The notes below the pieces were generated by a model. It worked only from the letters and a program-made list of their open reading frames with translations. It did no database searches and was not told where the DNA came from. DNA of 40,142 nucleotides from a bacterium (GTDB lineage: Bacteria; Hydrothermota; Tepidihabitantia; Tepidihabitantales; Tepidihabitantaceae). Location: NCBI GenBank assembly GCA_035505375.1, contig DATJQV010000053.1:1-40142 (forward strand), in the 5' to 3' direction. A program made the position numbers and the translations under genes. Shown here piece by piece: positions 8,761-16,547 of the stretch (the first letter of the stretch is position 1; each line of letters starts with the position of its first letter).

Positions 8761-9339
8761 ATGGACAAGCAATTGGATGCCATACCTGAGGATTCACTGG
8801 TCAGTCGCTCCGCCCGGGGCGACGAGCAGGCTTTCGGGGTGCTGGTTGAACGCTACAAAGGTATGCTGTACTCAATGGCCACGAGGCTGATGAAAGACCG
8901 CGGGCGCGCCGAGGACGCGGCGCAGGAGAGTTTCATCAAGGCTTGGGCCGCGTTGCCCGGGTTCAAGGGCGAGTCGAAGTTCTCGTCGTGGCTGTACCGC
9001 ATATGCTACAATACGTGCATCAGCGAATTGCGCAAGCGGAAGCCCGAGGTCGAACTGGACGAGGCGATGGAGGTGCCGGTCGAAGGACCGGCGCAGGAGT
9101 TCCGGAACCGCGACATTCAGGCTACGATACAGGATGAGGTCAGTAGACTGCCGGATGATTACCGAGCCGCCATAACGCTGTACCATTTCAACGGCCTGTC
9201 TTATGAGGAGATTGCGAAGCTGACCCGAAAGCCGATGGGGACGGTGAAGGCCAACATACACCGTGCCCGCGCTGCTCTGAAAACCCGGCTGGTCGAGCGA
9301 GTCGGCTGGGACAACTTGAAAGAGGTGATGTGGCAGTGA
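8761..9339 (+). CDS. ECF sigma factor (RpoE type)
   Basis: A 192-residue group IV sigma factor. Region 2 spans about residues 20-90 (GDEQAFGVLVERYKG, AEDAAQESFIKAWAAL, SSWLYRICYN) and region 4 about 125-180 (LPDDYRAAITLYHFNGLSYE, then EIAKLTRKPMGTVKANIHRA, the -35-binding helix-turn-helix). The ATG at 8761 is preferred to in-frame upstream codons because conserved region 2 follows soon after and GGAG lies 9 nt upstream. An anti-sigma gene follows, so the protein is probably held at the membrane until a signal releases it. The last residues LKEVMWQ recur just before the anti-sigma gene, which marks the flank of an insertion. Confidence 0.93.
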   Translation: MDKQLDAIPEDSLVSRSARGDEQAFGVLVERYKGMLYSMATRLMKDRGRAEDAAQESFIKAWAALPGFKGESKFSSWLYRICYNTCISELRKRKPEVELDEAMEVPVEGPAQEFRNRDIQATIQDEVSRLPDDYRAAITLYHFNGLSYEEIAKLTRKPMGTVKANIHRARAALKTRLVERVGWDNLKEVMWQ

Positions 9340-9518
9340 CAGTCTTCAGTTACCAGGTACCAGTTTCCAGGTGGACACGGTCCATCGCTGAGTTCCGTTT
9401 CGGTGATGGTCCAGCACCCTCACCCTTCCCTCTCCCTCAAGGGGGAGGGAATAGAAGGGAGGGGGTCGAACTTGCCACTGCTTACGCGGATGTCAGTAGC
9501 CCGGTGGTCTGGTTTTAT
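9340..9518. repeat. Insertion between sigma and anti-sigma genes
   Basis: Immediately after the sigma stop codon come five heptamers (9340-9374, CAGTTAC type), then 9417-9465, a polypurine/polypyrimidine palindromic element related to those at 21941-21990 and 32003-32053. The insertion is bounded by imperfect 24-bp direct repeats at 9316-9339 and 9519-9542 (18 of 24 positions agree). The repeats encode LKEVMW at the end of the sigma gene and contain the ribosome site and GTG of the anti-sigma gene. Confidence 0.75.
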
Positions 9519-9532
9519 CTGAAGGAGCTGAT

Positions 9533-10009
9533 GTGGCGATAAGTTGCGAGGAATTCAAGAACCGGTTGCAGGATTACGTTACCCGCCAGCTTGAGCCCGA
9601 GGAGCGTCGGCAGGTTGACGCGCACCTGCTCGAGTGCGCCGATTGCCAGCACGAACTGGCGGTCATGACCGCCATCGTCTCCACGCTGGACCATCAGCCG
9701 GTGACGGAACCTTCGTCGGAGTTCACGTCAAAGGTGCTTGCCGGGCTGCCGAAGCAGCGGACGTTTGTGCCAAGCCTATGGTGGGCGCTCGTGCTGACGC
9801 CGATACTAGCCGGAGTGGCTTTCCTGCTGCGAGCGCCGGTTGCGGCTGAATTGGCGAAGCTGCTTGACCGGCTCCCGTCGCCACCCGCGCAGTTGCCGGC
9901 TCCGACTACTTCTCAGGTGGCGCTGGTGGTCGGCGTTGTCGTTGGTCTAGGGCTTCTGGTGTCAGCCGGCGCGGTTTATTACTGCTGGGAGCAGTATCTG
10001 CGCGACTAG
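9533..10009 (+). CDS. Zinc-finger anti-sigma factor, two-helix membrane protein
   Basis: A 158-residue protein. Residues 1-45 form a zf-HC2 (anti-sigma zinc) domain: CEEF near the start, then HLLECADCQHEL with the HxxxCxxC metal ligands. Hydrophobic segments lie at about 81-98 (LWWALVLTPILAGVAFLL) and 127-149 (VALVVGVVVGLGLLVSAG). The GTG at 9533 follows GAAGGAG. It should sequester the ECF factor encoded upstream. The junction between the two genes was probably a stop-start overlap before the insertion at 9340-9518 separated them. Confidence 0.88.
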   Translation: MAISCEEFKNRLQDYVTRQLEPEERRQVDAHLLECADCQHELAVMTAIVSTLDHQPVTEPSSEFTSKVLAGLPKQRTFVPSLWWALVLTPILAGVAFLLRAPVAAELAKLLDRLPSPPAQLPAPTTSQVALVVGVVVGLGLLVSAGAVYYCWEQYLRD

Positions 10010-10021
10010 CGTAGCGCCGCA

Positions 10022-10125
10022 AGGTACCAGTTATCAGGTACCAGTTTCCAGTGGCCGACAGCGCGAATTCGCCGTCTGAAGGCTTAGCTTCCAGTTACCA
10101 GGTACCGGTTACGATGGCCAGTTTC
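10022..10125. repeat. Heptamer arrays left of the four-helix-bundle gene
   Basis: Five units at 10022-10056 (AGGTACC, AGTTATC, AGTTTCC type) and about six at 10084-10125 (CCAGTTA, CCAGGTA type). Their sequence is the reverse complement of the array at 10583-10617 on the other side of the next gene. Confidence 0.75.
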
Positions 10126-10149
10126 CACGGAGGTCGGAAGTGGGGCTGT

Positions 10150-10563
10150 TTACGCTTCTTTGTTCGGGCTGGTTTGAGGTGCGCTGCAGGAGCGGACGAT
10201 GGCACCGAAGATGAGGGTCAACTCCTTCGCCTCCGACCACAGCTCGCGTGCTCTGGGTTTGCGTTCGGGGCATGCGGCCGCGAGCATGTGCAGCCAGTGC
10301 TGCGTTTCGCGTGCCTCCTTGGCGCAGATGCTGATCTTGTGCCTGAAGTCGAGGCGCGATTCGGCCTCATTTGCTTCTGAGTAGTTGGCTCCGACGCTCG
10401 TCGCCGCTCGTACCAGTTGCGAGATGAGCGAGCGTGTTACGGCGTTCCGTTCGATTGTCCGCGCGAAGGTGATGACGTCCACGCCAAACCGCGAAGTCCT
10501 TCCAACGAGGTCCTGCCGGGTCTTGCCAGGGGCATGGCTATCGGACGCACCGGCGGGCTTCAC
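10150..10563 (-). CDS. Four-helix-bundle protein (23S rRNA IVP family)
   Basis: A protein of up to 137 residues with no signal peptide. The family core is clear: SLISQLVRAATSVGANYSEA, then SRLDFRHKISICAKEARETQ and HWLHMLAAA, the pattern of four-helix-bundle proteins related to those encoded in 23S rRNA intervening sequences and to the Avd accessory protein of diversity-generating retroelements. No rRNA and no reverse transcriptase is nearby. The start is uncertain: a GTG at 10563 is used, but the conserved part begins near KTRQDLVGR (residue 14). The gene is flanked on both sides by inverted copies of one heptamer array. Molecular role of stand-alone members is unknown. Confidence 0.85.
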   Translation of the reverse strand: MKPAGASDSHAPGKTRQDLVGRTSRFGVDVITFARTIERNAVTRSLISQLVRAATSVGANYSEANEAESRLDFRHKISICAKEARETQHWLHMLAAACPERKPRARELWSEAKELTLIFGAIVRSCSAPQTSPNKEA

Positions 10564-10582
10564 GAGGCGTGTCCGGTTCCGC

Positions 10583-10617
10583 TAACTGGTCACTGGTACC
10601 TGGTCACTGGTACCTCA
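10583..10617. repeat. Heptamer array abutting a stop codon
   Basis: Five units: TAACTGG, TCACTGG, TACCTGG, TCACTGG, TACCTCA. The last unit contains the stop codon (10615-10617) of the minus-strand membrane protein gene. Confidence 0.75.
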
Positions 10618-11256
10618 GTGGATTAGCCCCAGCCAGTCTCCCAGCAGGAACTGTAGCCTCCCGATGAATAGCGATATACGGGCCATGACGGTGTAGCCGA
10701 AGGATGCGCCGAATCCGACCATGATGAAGACGATGCCGACGTAGCTGATCGGCTTCAATACGCCCTTGCGTTCGGCGGAGAAGAAGAAGTAGCTGATGGT
10801 GGCAATCACGCCGACGAGAATGAGGATGGCCCAAAGCGCCGTGTCCCAGTGTGTGAGTTGCCCGCGGGTGACGATTGTCGCCTTCAATTGCCGGATGATC
10901 TCGGCGTCAATCGCGCGCGGTATTCCCATGCCGCAGGAGTAGCCAAGCGCGATCGAAATCGGGATGCGTACCAGCCACGAGATTTTGGGGATGAACCGCG
11001 TGAAGTAGAGCGCGCCGATGATGGCGAGGGATATGAGCCAGATCTTGGTCCCGATATTCGAGCCGTGCCGGATCGGGTTGATGAGGACGGGCACAAGCAG
11101 CAGGTGCCACGTGACCGCGATTGAGTAGCCGTTGGCCAGCCCTACGTACAGGTGCTCAGCGGCGCGGTAGAAAGGGTTTTCGCGGTAGAGGAAGGAGAAC
11201 ATGGCGAGCGTCAGGATTGCCGCGATCCAGACCCAGGGGTCGGGGGAGAGGTTCAT
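10615..11256 (-). CDS. Six-helix membrane protein, last gene of a membrane operon
   Basis: A 213-residue integral membrane protein with about six hydrophobic segments: 8-24, 37-59, 72-90, 94-113, 137-159 and 168-205. Motifs include YRENPFYRAAEHLYVGLANG near the N-terminus and GMGIPRAIDAEIIRQLKAT in a central loop. No transporter or enzyme signature was recognised. The ATG at 11256 has AGGAGG 6 nt upstream. It is separated from the previous operon gene by a fold-back repeat but lies on the same strand and has a similar membrane character. I infer it belongs to one complex with the products of 11402-14045. Confidence 0.7.
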   Translation of the reverse strand: MNLSPDPWVWIAAILTLAMFSFLYRENPFYRAAEHLYVGLANGYSIAVTWHLLLVPVLINPIRHGSNIGTKIWLISLAIIGALYFTRFIPKISWLVRIPISIALGYSCGMGIPRAIDAEIIRQLKATIVTRGQLTHWDTALWAILILVGVIATISYFFFSAERKGVLKPISYVGIVFIMVGFGASFGYTVMARISLFIGRLQFLLGDWLGLIH

Positions 11257-11300
11257 GAGGACCTCCTGTTCCGAGAATCGGCCGAAGTCGCAGTGATGAT

Positions 11301-11383
11301 AGTCCAGAACCCGGAGTCCAGAGTCCAGAATTCAGAGTCTACAGACATTCTGGTTTCTGGTTTCTGGATTCTGAATTCTGCAT
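11301..11383. repeat. Fold-back element made of inverted heptamers
   Basis: The left arm has units AGTCCAG, AACCCGG, AGTCCAG, AGTCCAG, AATTCAG (11301-11335). The right arm has five units TCTGGTT, TCTGGTT, TCTGGAT, TCTGAAT, TCTGCAT (11349-11383). The right arm is the reverse complement of the ATTCAGA family, so the transcript can fold into an imperfect hairpin of about 33 bp. It lies within the operon, between the third and fourth membrane genes. Confidence 0.75.
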
Positions 11384-11401
11384 TGTCCCCTGTCTGGTAT
11401 G

Positions 11402-12283
11402 TCATGACTTCCTCCTGCGGGTGACGAAGTAGGCGATGTTGCCGATGATGATAAAGGCCATGATGGCGAGGTGCGCAGCGGCCTGCGACGACATTGCCTC
11501 AGTGCCTTTGCTGCGCAGATGCCAGTCCATGCCGTTCTTGGCCATGCGCTGTTCGAGCAGCTCCTCGTATTCGGCCGCCCCCTTCATGCCGGCCAGCATA
11601 CCCGTGAACTGGCCGGAGTTGACATAGGGATAGAAGTCAGCAGCCGATACCGCGGTGATGCCGCAACCGAGATGGACGCCGAACTGGGTCTGGGCGAGGT
11701 TGATCCACGAGAGCGGGAAAGCCGAAGCGGCAATCGACACGAGGATGCCGGCGTCGTCATAGTTCTTCAGCCGCTGCATCACCGGCAGGCTCTCGGTCTT
11801 CTGGCCGTAGTAGTCAACCGGGAAGACTTTGGCAATGTGCTGACCCATGCCGAGCATTACGGTAACCACCGGCGTGGTCCAGCCCCAGAAGACGTAGTCT
11901 CTCCCGTTGATTACTGAGTCGGCATTGGTCTTGGCGTGGGCGTTGAACTCGGCGGTGACTTGACGTATGGCATCCTGGCCGAGGCCGAGGCCCTGCGGGG
12001 CCATCGCGAGTACGCCGACCGGCCGGTGGATGACAAATGCGTGGCGCAGCAGCGCCACGAGCATTGGCTGGAGTTCGGCCTGCGTATCGGGCGTGTAGTC
12101 AACCGAGATGATCAGGGCCTTGTTCGCCGGCATCGTGTCGATGTAGTGGAACATGCTTTCGACCGGCGGGGTGGCCACTGACTTTATCTTGAAGGGGAAG
12201 ATCAGCGGCAGCATTACCACCAGCCAGACCACGAGATAAATCCAGCGGCGGTCGATGGCTTGAAGTTTCTTCCAGAATTCCAT
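11402..12283 (-). CDS. Membrane-anchored protein with a large soluble domain
   Basis: A 293-residue protein with one helix at 14-33 (RWIYLVVWLVVMLPLIFPF) and one at about 263-287, followed by RRRKS, which places the tail in the cytoplasm and the roughly 230-residue middle outside. The middle has alternating strand and helix patterns (NKALIISVDYTPDTQAEL, VGVLAMAPQGLGLGQDAI, YDDAGILVSIAASAFP) suggestive of a Rossmann-like fold, but no catalytic motif was recognised. The start ATG overlaps the stop of the upstream gene (TGATG), with GGGAGG 7 nt upstream, so translation is coupled. Confidence 0.72.
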   Translation of the reverse strand: MEFWKKLQAIDRRWIYLVVWLVVMLPLIFPFKIKSVATPPVESMFHYIDTMPANKALIISVDYTPDTQAELQPMLVALLRHAFVIHRPVGVLAMAPQGLGLGQDAIRQVTAEFNAHAKTNADSVINGRDYVFWGWTTPVVTVMLGMGQHIAKVFPVDYYGQKTESLPVMQRLKNYDDAGILVSIAASAFPLSWINLAQTQFGVHLGCGITAVSAADFYPYVNSGQFTGMLAGMKGAAEYEELLEQRMAKNGMDWHLRSKGTEAMSSQAAAHLAIMAFIIIGNIAYFVTRRRKS

Positions 12284-12945
12284 CAGGCGCCTCCCAGCCA
12301 GCCGCGTTCAATCCCCAGGAGGATCTTCAGGGACGTGGCCAGAATGCCAAGCTGGATCCCGAAGTTGATGCCGCGCTTGGCCGCGGTGTTGGGAACGGCG
12401 AGAATCCACTCCGCGAACGACGGCAGCGGGTGGAATATCATTCGGCCCAGCGGGACCGCGCCCAGCATCAGCACAAATGCCGCCGCGAGCAGGAGCGTCG
12501 CCGCGAAGCTGCGGGCGCGGAATGCCCGGTACGCGGCCGAGGCCATGAAGAAGGCGAGCATCGAGAACATCGTGGCCCCAAGCGGCACGATCATGTTCAT
12601 GTATAGCGTCTGCATGTGGAACGAGAAGCTGCCGATGTGGGTCGGCAGAATCCCGGGATGCGCAGGGTCGATGCCGCCGAACAGGCCGATAATGCCGGTG
12701 ACAAGGATGGTGATGACTGTTATCCAGCTATACTGCCAGTTCACGATCTTGTGTTGGATCTTGTTGAAGTGGTGCTGGAGAATCGAGCCGAGACCCAGCA
12801 CGAGGCTGAACGCGGTGATGATCCGCAGTACGTCGTTGCGCATCGACTCGTCCACAGCTTGTACCGCATGGTGCGGGATGAAGTATGTCACCGCGCCGAA
12901 GATGCCGGTCACGAGCACCAGTATTAGAGGTAGTCGTTTCTTCAT
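12283..12945 (-). CDS. Six-helix membrane protein
   Basis: A 220-residue protein with hydrophobic segments at about 5-24, 39-60, 74-92, 117-140, 145-167 and 193-213. A polar loop after helix 3 contains GGIDPAHPGILPTHIGS with several histidines, and the first loop has IPHHAVQAVDE. Conserved-looking histidines and aspartates could bind metal, but this is only suggestive. AGGAG lies 7 nt before the ATG at 12945. The gene starts 8 bp after the preceding stop and overlaps the following start, placing it firmly in the operon. Confidence 0.72.
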   Translation of the reverse strand: MKKRLPLILVLVTGIFGAVTYFIPHHAVQAVDESMRNDVLRIITAFSLVLGLGSILQHHFNKIQHKIVNWQYSWITVITILVTGIIGLFGGIDPAHPGILPTHIGSFSFHMQTLYMNMIVPLGATMFSMLAFFMASAAYRAFRARSFAATLLLAAAFVLMLGAVPLGRMIFHPLPSFAEWILAVPNTAAKRGINFGIQLGILATSLKILLGIERGWLGGA

Positions 12946-12953
12946 TGATTCTC

Positions 12954-14045
12954 CTAGAGGTACTTGAGTACCGGTAGGCCGGCGACGAGCGCCAGGAGAG
13001 TGCCCGCCACGATAATGATGACGATGAGCGCCTTGGAGTAGTCCTGGCCCTTGATGGCGCCCAGAAGCAGCGGCTCGCGCGAGAGATAGGCCGAGGCAGC
13101 ATAGAGCTCCTCGCCAATGAGCGTGTAGTCGCAGGCAGTGATGAAGAACGGCAACTGCGAGACCGCGTCGGTGCCGGCAATCTGGACTGCGCCGGTCGCA
13201 GCGCCGGTCTCAGCCATGATCAGCGACTCGGCGTAGAACATGCCGACGAGGAAGTTGGTCGCCGGCTTCTCGCGGGTCATGATTCCGTCCACGGCCGCGG
13301 CGAAGGCGAACTGCACGTCGGTGACGAAGAACACGATGTCCTGGGTGAACGCATCGGGCCGGCCGACCGACGTGTACGACTCTTTCACGATTTCCCGCGC
13401 GACGGTGTAGACGATGGGGTCGGTGTTGGGCACGATGAGCGGAGTCCCGAACTTTGCCGTCTTCTTGGCCACCTCGCCGAGGATGTTAAGCGAGGCGATG
13501 GTCGCCACGTCGGCAATCGAGGAGGTGCCGGGAACGTAGAGCGTGGGCCGGCCCATCTCGGTGGCGCGCCCCAGTGCCTCGTCCACGGCGTCGAGCCCGG
13601 AGATGCGGCGGATGAACAGATTCCGGTCCTTCCGCGCCCGGCTGATGAAGTAGAACAGGATGAATGACAGAACGACGCTGCCGATAAGCGCCGGCACCGT
13701 GTCAAAGTTGAACCATTGAGGCGACGCGACCGCATAACCCGACACCGGGGCTTCCGCAGACTCGGTGTTGGACTCGGCGATGATCTTGTACTGATATGGG
13801 ACGCCGTCATGTGCGCCTTGATCAACAAAGCTTGTCGCCCGGCGACCGGCGAAGTTCAGCGTGTCCCAGGCCGTGGCCCCCTTGGCTTGGCGGAGTACTT
13901 GATAGCCGAGCAGGCCCGAGTCCGGGGACGCCGTCCAGGTTACGAGAATACTGCCGCCGCCGTCATTCGGCACGTCGCGGGCCGCGACGTTGCCCGGCGG
14001 GGCCAAGCTGCTCAAGAGCAGCGCGACAATACAGGATAACGCCAA
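12954..14045 (-). CDS. Fibronectin III plus DUF6754-like membrane protein
   Basis: A 363-residue protein. After a signal peptide (1-22) comes a fibronectin type III domain at about 24-110 (ILVTWTASPDSGLLGYQVLR, then YQYKIIAE). A helix at 117-137 (ALIGSVVLSFILFYFISRAR) is followed by a cytoplasmic domain with GLDAVDEALGRATEMGRPTL, VPNTDPIVYTVAREI and GMFYAESLIMAETGAATGA, and a C-terminal helix at 338-358. This arrangement resembles DUF6754 proteins, whose function is unknown. The TTG start at 14045 is supported by AGGAGG 7 nt upstream. It is the first gene of the four-gene membrane operon. Confidence 0.72.
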   Translation of the reverse strand: MALSCIVALLLSSLAPPGNVAARDVPNDGGGSILVTWTASPDSGLLGYQVLRQAKGATAWDTLNFAGRRATSFVDQGAHDGVPYQYKIIAESNTESAEAPVSGYAVASPQWFNFDTVPALIGSVVLSFILFYFISRARKDRNLFIRRISGLDAVDEALGRATEMGRPTLYVPGTSSIADVATIASLNILGEVAKKTAKFGTPLIVPNTDPIVYTVAREIVKESYTSVGRPDAFTQDIVFFVTDVQFAFAAAVDGIMTREKPATNFLVGMFYAESLIMAETGAATGAVQIAGTDAVSQLPFFITACDYTLIGEELYAASAYLSREPLLLGAIKGQDYSKALIVIIIVAGTLLALVAGLPVLKYL

Positions 14046-14131
14046 TTTGCCTCCTAGTTGCTGCCGGGAAGCGGCAGCGCGAGCGGGTGGTCTGGTCTCA
14101 TCGGGTTAACTGCGTGCAAAACCGACGCGTG

Positions 14132-14159
14132 AGTCTATTGAAACCCGGGTGTGGGTCAA
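14132..14159 (-). promoter_or_regulatory. Promoter of the four-gene membrane operon
   Basis: On the minus strand TTGACC (14159-14154), a 16-bp spacer and TAGACT (14137-14132). The predicted start near 14125 leaves a leader of about 80 nt before the TTG codon with its AGGAGG site. Confidence 0.45.
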
Positions 14160-14186
14160 CAGCCGCAGGCAGCTGAGCTAAGTGGG

Positions 14187-15617
14187 CTACTCGGTCCACC
14201 GCCGGCGCTCGCGTTCCATTTGAGCGAGATAGCGCCGGGTTACCCCGGTCGGGTATTTGCCGTTGAAGCAGGCAGTGCAGAAGCCCGGCACCGACGAGTT
14301 GCCGCGGACCGCATCGACCAGGCCATCGTAGGTCTGGTACACGAGAGCGTCGGCTCCGACGACCTTGCGGATCTGCTCGACAGTCCGGTTCTTTGCCACG
14401 AACTCGCCGCGGGTCATCATGTCGATGCCGTAGACACAAGGGCAACGAAGCGGCGGCGCCGTGATCGCCATGAAGACCTTGCGTGCACCGGCATCGCGTA
14501 CCATCTGGACGATCTCGCGCGAAGTCGTACCGCGGACGATGGAGTCATCCACCAGCATGACGTCCTTGCCCACGACTTGAGACCTTACCGGGTTGAGCTT
14601 CTGGCGGACGGAGAGAGCTCGTCGGTCCTGGCCATGCATGATGAAAGTGCGTGCAATGTAACGGTTCTTGATGAGACCCTCGCGCAGGTCTACACCCAGG
14701 GTCGAGGCGAGCGAACTGGCCGCGGCCCGGGCAGTGTCGGGCACCGGAACGATGACGTCGGGCTTCAGTCCCTGGCGCGCGACCTCATGAGCCAGGCGCT
14801 CGCCGAGCCGCAGTCGCGCCTGGTAGACTTCGATGCCGTCAATGACTGAATCGGGTCGGGCAAAGTAGACGAACTCGAAGATGCACGGCCGCGGCGTGCC
14901 GGGGCGCACTTGACTACGATGTACCTTGCCCTTGAAGTCCACGAATATCGCCTCGCCGGGTTTCACGTCGGTGAAGCCGTGGAACCCGAGGCGATCAAAG
15001 GCAACGCTCTCGGAGGCGAAGGCGAACTCGTCGCCCTGCTGAGAGAAGACCAGAGGCTTGATGCCGAACGGGTCGCGGAAGGCGAGCAATCCGCGCTTGT
15101 GGATCAGCGCGACGACCGAATAGGCTCCATGGGCCCGGTCGAACACGCCCTGGACTGCCTTGAATACCGCGGTTGGGCCGAAGCGTCTCAAGTTCGACTG
15201 CTCCAGGCCCTCGGCAAACACGTTCAGCACCGGCTCGACGTCGGAACAACTGGTGAGTTGGCGAAAGTCCTTGAACATCAATTCGCGGCGCAGGTCGGAG
15301 TAGTTGGTGACATTACCGTTGTGGACCATTGCTATGCCGAACGGATGATTCACGTAGAACGGTTGGGCATCTTCGGCTGAGCCGGGTCCAATGGTCGGGT
15401 AGCGGGTGTGGCCGATGCCGGCATTACCGGTCAGGCGCGACAGGTTCTTTGGATTGAAGACGTTCGCGACCGTGCCGTTACCCTTCTTGAGGTGGAACGT
15501 GCCGTCCGAGGTCAGAACTCCGGCCGAATCCTGGCCACGGTGCTGCAGCGCCAGCAGACCCTCGACGAGGTCAGGGCCGACTTCTCGCCGGGTGATGAGT
15601 CCGATTACGCCACACAT
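14187..15617 (-). CDS. purF: Amidophosphoribosyltransferase PurF
   Basis: A 476-residue cytoplasmic enzyme that makes 5-phosphoribosylamine from PRPP and glutamine, the first step of purine synthesis. Cys2 after the initiator Met is the glutaminase nucleophile (MCGVIGLI), and HRGQDSAG and GHTRYPT are family motifs. The phosphoribosyltransferase half carries the PRPP loop VMLVDDSIVRGTT. Cysteines in RPCIFEF, CPCVYG and CTAC fit the 4Fe-4S-containing Bacillus subtilis type. The ATG at 15617 follows its -10 box by 6 nt, so the mRNA is probably leaderless. No other purine gene is nearby. Confidence 0.96.
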   Translation of the reverse strand: MCGVIGLITRREVGPDLVEGLLALQHRGQDSAGVLTSDGTFHLKKGNGTVANVFNPKNLSRLTGNAGIGHTRYPTIGPGSAEDAQPFYVNHPFGIAMVHNGNVTNYSDLRRELMFKDFRQLTSCSDVEPVLNVFAEGLEQSNLRRFGPTAVFKAVQGVFDRAHGAYSVVALIHKRGLLAFRDPFGIKPLVFSQQGDEFAFASESVAFDRLGFHGFTDVKPGEAIFVDFKGKVHRSQVRPGTPRPCIFEFVYFARPDSVIDGIEVYQARLRLGERLAHEVARQGLKPDVIVPVPDTARAAASSLASTLGVDLREGLIKNRYIARTFIMHGQDRRALSVRQKLNPVRSQVVGKDVMLVDDSIVRGTTSREIVQMVRDAGARKVFMAITAPPLRCPCVYGIDMMTRGEFVAKNRTVEQIRKVVGADALVYQTYDGLVDAVRGNSSVPGFCTACFNGKYPTGVTRRYLAQMERERRRWTE

Positions 15618-15623
15618 GAATGT

Positions 15624-15652
15624 ATGTTACCGGCAGGACGTGGCAAAGTCAA
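15624..15652 (-). promoter_or_regulatory. purF promoter, leaderless geometry
   Basis: On the minus strand TTGACT (15652-15647), a 17-bp spacer and TAACAT (15629-15624), then 6 nt and the ATG of purF. No Shine-Dalgarno fits in that space. Confidence 0.55.
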
Positions 15653-15668
15653 AGCCGTGTCGCCGCGA

Positions 15669-16547
15669 TCAGACTCCACGGCCATCAAAGTCAGGTGTGT
15701 AGTCGCGGGAGGCAGAGGAGTGGTCCTGCGCGAAGCCCTCGTCGAAGCCCAGTTTCTCAAACCAGCGCCGCACCTCCTCGTATTCGTCATTCGACAGGCG
15801 GCGGTTCATGCCCGGGAGTTCGGCAGCGCGGTGGACAGGGCAGTATTGGGACATCAAGCTGACGCTGGTGCGCGGGCCAGAATCGTCATGTATCCACTTC
15901 AGCAGTTGCTTGCTGTCGTCGGAGTGGCCCGGGAGCACGAGGTGCCGGATGATGAGGCCCTTCTCGATGATTCCGTGTTCATCGTACCGGTTCTGACCGA
16001 CCTGTCGTTTCATCTCGGTAATCGCAGCCGAGGCGTGTTTGAAATAGTCGGCCGCCGACGAGCAGGCGTGGGCGAGTTCGTCCGAGTAGTATTTGAGGTC
16101 AGGCAGGTAGATCTGCACGAGTCCTTCGAAGCGCGCGAGGGTGTCGGTTTTCTCGTAACCGTTCGAATTCCAGACGATGGGAATCTTCAGTGTCGCTCGG
16201 GCACGTTCGAGGACCGGGAGCAACTGGTCGGAATAGTGAGTCGGCGAGACGAGATTGATGTTGTGCGCGCCCTGCTGTTCAAGCTCATGCATGATGGCCA
16301 GCAGCCGTTCGGATGTGACCTCATGGCCGTGGCCAAGCTGAGAGATGTCGTAATTCTGGCAGAAACGGCAGCGGAGATTGCAGTGGCTGAAGAAGATGGT
16401 TCCGGACCCGCGTGTTCCGGATATGGGTGGCTCTTCCCAGTGATGGAGCTGAGCGAGCGCTATCTCAAACCGGTCTGTTGCCCGGCAGACGCCAAGCTTC
16501 ACCGAGCGGTCGACACCGCAATCGAATGGGCACGCACGACATTCCAC
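15669..16547 (-). CDS. PflX-like radical SAM protein
   Basis: A 292-residue protein of the COG1313 (PflX, pyruvate-formate-lyase-activase-like) type. The radical SAM motif is CNLRCRFCQN at about 56-65. Before it lies a cysteine-rich segment, CRACPFDCGV and LGVCRA, typical of this subgroup and possibly a second metal site. IYLPDLKYYSDELA and RHLVLPGHSDDSKQLLKWI are conserved downstream. The substrate is unknown. The GTG at 16547 lies 5 nt after a perfect TATAAT box. The gene diverges from the pseudouridine synthase gene, with both promoters packed into an 83-bp gap. Confidence 0.88.
   Translation of the reverse strand: MECRACPFDCGVDRSVKLGVCRATDRFEIALAQLHHWEEPPISGTRGSGTIFFSHCNLRCRFCQNYDISQLGHGHEVTSERLLAIMHELEQQGAHNINLVSPTHYSDQLLPVLERARATLKIPIVWNSNGYEKTDTLARFEGLVQIYLPDLKYYSDELAHACSSAADYFKHASAAITEMKRQVGQNRYDEHGIIEKGLIIRHLVLPGHSDDSKQLLKWIHDDSGPRTSVSLMSQYCPVHRAAELPGMNRRLSNDEYEEVRRWFEKLGFDEGFAQDHSSASRDYTPDFDGRGV

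Follow-up and report, generated by a model that had tools for sequence, protein, structure and literature searches.

The window, that is, the entire 40,142-nucleotide stretch of DNA analyzed here, carries on its minus strand four adjacent genes, designated A, B, C, and D (Table 1), which the first-pass annotation had described as tightly spaced, preceded by strong ribosome-binding sites, and served by one promoter. The four reading frames are real and overlap or lie close together in relatives, and a clear ribosome site can be read from the sequence ~4-8 bases ahead of each start (AGGAGG, AGGAG, GGGAGG, and AGGAGG for A, B, C, and D, respectively). The single promoter did not hold up, as the best candidate, in the gap between purF and gene A, is a weak 9/12 match that does not exceed what shuffled sequence gives. 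The C-D gap measures 145 bp in the window versus a median of -4 elsewhere and houses one copy of a palindromic repeat that is spread throughout the genome.

Table 1. Coordinates and main properties of the genes and features of the A-B-C-D locus.
Feature	Coordinates	Strand	Product	Description
Gap purF / gene A	14046..14186	-		AGGAGG ahead of A; weak promoter-like site 14159-14132
Gene A	12954..14045	-	363 aa, TTG start	N-terminal hydrophobic segment; Fn3 ~15-95; TM 117-135; predicted-cytoplasmic alpha/beta DUF6754 core 149-322; TM 339-357
Gene B	12283..12945	-	220 aa	Six-TM, N-in/C-in; conserved R140, R191, E213, R214; no known family
Gene C	11402..12283	-	293 aa	TM 14-32; extracytoplasmic six-strand alpha/beta domain 39-249; TM 269-287; conserved E70, D129, D157, Q225, E238, Y239, E240; no known family
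Interspersed palindromic repeat in C-D gap	11298..11388	.		Insertion, no part of the machine
Gene D	10615..11256	-	213 aa	Six- or seven-TM; conserved N27, Y30, E34, Q123, R193, R200; no known family

The repeat is an imperfect palindrome composed of CCAGAATNCAGA-like units; it also occurs in the window at 1140-1422 and 2232-2264, and the copy in the C-D gap has ~50 further matches in the genome, on both strands. Just 3′ of D, a minus-strand ORF of 137 aa (10150-10563) resembles, by eye, the four-helix-bundle proteins of 23S rRNA intervening sequences. No Rfam match to an RNA element was found within window positions 9000-16000.

Architecture of the A, B, C, and D proteins

The product of gene A is a full-length member of the DUF6754 family (PF20539; E = 7e-117, 389.6 bits versus a gathering score of 27), which has no assigned function, and its residues ~15-95 adopt a fibronectin-III (Fn3) fold (phmmer to titin Fn3, 1.2e-6; Foldseek, 1e-7). 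Foldseek with the whole protein returned Fn3 matches only, because this domain dominates the list. Topology was derived from hydropathy and charge averaged over each family. The initial view of A as an Fn3/DUF6754 bitopic protein is retained for its two domains and abandoned for its topology: an N-terminal hydrophobic segment is present in addition to two transmembrane helices, and the charge pattern predicts that the core between these helices lies inside the cell. B has the six hydrophobic helices originally ascribed to it, with alternating loop charge; D, assigned the same number, is polytopic with six or seven. Likewise, C is anchored at both ends, as had been proposed: a single helix stands at either terminus, and the ~236-residue loop between them (~230 in the original estimate) is placed outside the cytoplasm since the positive residues lie outside both helices. 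Long versions of gene A, encoding 645-707 aa with a large extra N-terminal region, were seen at three loci (L056 8815-10929, L074 8763-10886, and L075 2943-4880).

AlphaFold models were confident for both C (pLDDT 92.8) and A (pLDDT 89.7). In these models, the A and C cores are each alpha/beta domains with six strands and an identical order of helices and strands, making a common fold a candidate; profile comparisons of A with C and of B with D were negative, and sequence homology within either pair was rejected. In A and C alike, the residues that reach 95% conservation among 126 sets gather near the C-terminal ends of the strands, suggesting that the modeled clusters are putative binding clefts. 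At this threshold, the only conserved cysteine or histidine residues are C305 in A and H271 in C, and no His/Cys redox-ligand patterns occur in A-D. The fold of C is weakly similar to those of molybdenum-cofactor carrier, LOG, and YgdH-type nucleotide-binding proteins; its Foldseek match to 6y01 (SLOG/LOG-type fold) reaches a probability of up to 0.95 but is weak, with E ~0.01 and TM 0.3-0.5, and no PDB fold match with E<1e-3 was obtained for C.

The original assertion that these proteins show no transporter or enzyme signatures is borne out for A-D in Pfam and NCBIfam. HMM searches of the domains placed A in DUF6754 and C in no Pfam or NCBIfam family, and neither B, C, nor D has a match above cut-off in either collection. 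Searches with 36-40 relatives each of B, C, and D yielded scattered weak Pfam matches only. Those of B and D (DUF3623, Nucleos_tra2_N, Anthrone_oxy, and NuoJ) were rejected as below cut-off and inconsistent among members, with NuoJ, for instance, scoring 17.4 bits against D versus a cut-off of 319. PDB sequence searches with C, B, and D gave nothing convincing, and PADLOC models of anti-phage defense gave nothing better than E=0.07.

Conservation of the gene set and its partner trio

Far from rarely occurring together, the four families were found in 135 complete sets at loci comprising 40 from the window's phylum and the 80 best-ranked among 84,980 species genomes searched. Every complete set, without exception, has its genes in the order A-B-C-D, with median gaps of 9 (A-B), -4 (B-C), and -4 (C-D) bp, and tandem ABCD-ABCD or triple arrays are frequent. 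Hosts among the best 80 loci are titled WOR-3, Stahlbacteria, Latescibacterota, Edwardsbacteria, Fermentibacteria, CSSED10-310, Eisenbacteria, TA06, Poribacteria, Coatesbacteria, Zixibacteria, UBP2, and Effluviviaceae, these record titles being MAG labels that can be wrong and of which several fall within one GTDB phylum. Counted by record title, about a dozen little-studied bacterial phyla keep the set in this order. Within the window's phylum, A is present in 140 of 147 genomes and D in 144, at 1-7 copies per genome that are often in tandem; A also occurs in 13 of 14 genomes of a second phylum, labeled Zixibacteria (that of L137), and in 0 of 14 control genomes. The A, B, C, and D families almost never occur apart, and their pairwise distances correlate (B-C 0.83, B-D 0.79, C-D 0.76, and A with the others 0.61-0.66).

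A tree of concatenated sets resolves ancient paralogue groups. In the tandem arrays L047, L060, and L063, the first and second members fall in different clades, which disfavors recent duplication in these cases. The window's own genome contains two further ABCD operons (L009 5521-8812 and L010 10178-6640); gene A of the latter (9025-10178, contig C14) is split into two overlapping frames, reflecting either a frameshift or an assembly error.

Clustering of neighboring genes identified a recurrent trio: E (~110 aa), F (~600 aa), and G (~374 aa). E belongs to no known family. F matches the MutL family PF13941 (~1e-123, 411-414 bits versus a gathering score of 27), and its placement in the actin-like (ASKHA) ATPase superfamily comes solely from this match together with weak Hydantoinase_A/BadF matches. 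The GlmL/MutL family (PF13941, TIGR01319, NF040745, and NF040744) is known from mutase operons. F shares PF13941 with this family but scores far below the cut-offs for the GlmL equivalog NF040745 (219.9 versus 475 bits) and Or-4 (208.3 versus 600 bits), and it adjoins gcvPB, E, G, and ABCD. G contains a weak Biotin_lipoyl/RnfC_N-like region (E=1.8e-4, below cut-off), recalling the Rnf complex; however, RnfC scores 20.4 bits against G versus a cut-off of 245.95, no other Rnf subunit was matched, and A-D lack redox motifs. Pfam and NCBIfam scans found no Walker-type ATP-binding cassette in A-D, E, F, or G.

Among the 147 genomes of the window's phylum, E is present in 133, F in 139, and G in 139; in other groups, 27 of the 29 genomes that carry A also have F. 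WOR-3, Effluviviaceae, Fermentibacterales, and others show the order E-F-G-(ABCD)n, and Zixibacteria show ABCD-E-F-G. The trio adjoins ABCD in part of the genomes only; elsewhere, the window's genome included, the trio and ABCD lie on separate contigs (C57 for E-F and C46 for G in that genome). G126 and G127, two genomes of good quality (94-95% complete) from a single genus, have none of the genes A, D, E, F, and G; one other genome, G013, has E, F, and G with A and D absent. Absences were associated for A-F (p=0.003), E-F (p=6e-6), and F-G (p=6e-6), values that come from few absences in fragmented genomes and that ignore kinship and contig gaps. The initial description of a dedicated four-gene membrane set is thus sustained as to dedication and conservation and too narrow as to number, given that E, F, and G share its neighborhood and its presence/absence pattern.

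In several genomes, the reading frame of a second, longer MutL family also encodes a G-like region, which suggests that F and G interact. A second MutL-family protein, an 839-aa member of the longer family, is encoded in the window's own genome (L167 5251-7770, contig C39).

Glycine cleavage genes and possible roles of the seven families

In 94 of 128 genomes having both genes, spanning 25 families, gcvPB ends just ahead of E on the same strand. Fuller loci read gcvT-gcvH-gcvPA-gcvPB-E-F-G-(ABCD)n, other loci carry a lipoate-ligase-type gene 3′ of D, and the window's genome retains gcvT-H-PA-PB-E-F. The ancestral layout is tied to the glycine cleavage genes, and the link of E and F to gcvPB is no looser than their link to ABCD; their function may thus lie in glycine metabolism, which would count against the shared-unit reading given below. 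The gcvPB-E-F link provides a first metabolic clue to this system. Taken further, these loci, together with the relationship of F to a family of mutase operons and the lipoyl/RnfC_N-like region of G, could point to a membrane annex of glycine cleavage, in which E-F-G would reactivate or dock the glycine decarboxylase or its lipoyl carrier and ABCD would serve as its membrane anchor or as a membrane coupling for its product or electrons. This explanation is improbable, although slightly less so than the two considered below. Genome G126 lacks the system but has kept gcvPB, indicating that glycine cleavage does not seem to depend on the system, and absences of D and gcvPB are not associated (p=0.29). 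In addition, most ABCD sets, including that of the window, lie far from the gcv genes, and ABCD lack conserved His/Cys redox-ligand patterns.

A slightly less probable explanation is a machine for envelope biogenesis that exports or assembles protein, lipid, or glycan, with individual sets specialized according to their neighbors. The predicted periplasmic domain of C and the Fn3 domain of A would suit such a role, as would a Wzi-like outer-membrane protein encoded directly 3′ of D at ten loci; in the window's own genome, a Wzi-like protein adjoins the L009 copy and a TolB-like propeller the L010 copy. Hosts of ABCD are probably diderm, judging from the WOR-3 isolate sy37, for which the published description reports inner and outer membranes (PMC12285271). 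However, the window copy and most other sets have no envelope partner, neighbors vary by lineage, and no hydrolase, transferase, or pore signature was detected. The earlier term "envelope machine" is kept for architecture and co-inheritance, its functional half being an inference only. Least probable is a ligand-sensing transmembrane signaling or scaffold complex without transport, which would be in keeping with the predicted clefts on both membrane faces, the nucleotide-binding fold similarity of C, and the DUF4388 proteins and ExbB-type protein near some sets, but which is at odds with the lack of a PDB match for C at E<1e-3, the lack of an output domain, and two polytopic subunits that exceed the needs of a scaffold.

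The preferred reading is that of a shared E-F-G unit serving interchangeable ABCD modules. Co-occurrence and invariant order indicate that A, B, C, and D very probably form one physical complex, of which they would be obligate subunits in the inner membrane. Its membrane body would consist of B and D; A would present its alpha/beta core to the cytoplasm and its Fn3 domain to the exterior, and the periplasmic alpha/beta domain of C would bear a conserved acidic cleft. Shared neighborhoods and co-inheritance make it fairly probable, with less assurance, that ABCD is functionally united with E-F-G, a trio that would be cytosolic and membrane-associated and comprise an amphipathic adaptor (E), the putative ASKHA ATPase (F), and the lipoyl-like G. 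Most genomes have one full-length F versus 1-7 copies of A, and the pairing of one E-F-G unit with several ancient, distinct ABCD sets makes a single ATP-driven unit serving interchangeable membrane modules the likeliest logic, a model that is put forward tentatively. Each module might bind a different ligand or partner through C outside and A inside and then relay that ligand or partner, or else a signal, to the other side of the membrane, the ABCD types being specialized for different ligands or partners; no substrate is indicated by the evidence on A-G. That F drives transport or transmembrane coupling is rather doubtful. Stated in its broadest form, namely, a seven-family, near-universal core machine of a large group of uncultured diderm phyla, in which a putative actin-fold-ATPase unit with an ancient link to glycine cleavage drives or controls several paralogous ABCD envelope modules with ligand-binding domains on both faces, the proposal has a little under an even chance of being correct.

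By analogy only, this arrangement of one shared cytosolic unit per genome and several variant six-helix membrane modules recalls ECF-type transporters, which have a shared energizing unit and several membrane modules. Unlike these, ABCD/E/F/G include no ABC ATPase, the folds differ, and ABCD has periplasmic and Fn3 domains. The sy37 description mentions "few ATP-binding cassette transporters" (PMC12285271), which would leave room for a further transport system without showing one.

Unknown families of uncultivated taxa have been compiled in large catalogues (PMC10849945). DUF6754 is not mentioned in the literature searched, nor was such a system found in the searched passages of WOR-3 genome papers; no name, function, or publication was found for the system, of which only DUF6754 and Fn3 (A) and MutL (F) match known families, whereas the obligate partners of A, namely B, C, and D, are absent from Pfam and NCBIfam. 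Its nearly phylum-wide distribution, its commonness in several other phyla, and its frequent presence in several ancient copies suggest that it is likely a basic part of these cells. Strain sy37 of WOR-3 is now in pure culture (PMC12285271), which makes the question testable.

One ABCD type is followed 3′ of D by a DUF4388 protein and more unnamed genes (L041, L076, L140, L141, L147, and L149); in some of these loci, an ExbB/MotA-type protein is encoded ~3 kb further on, a possible second partner set.
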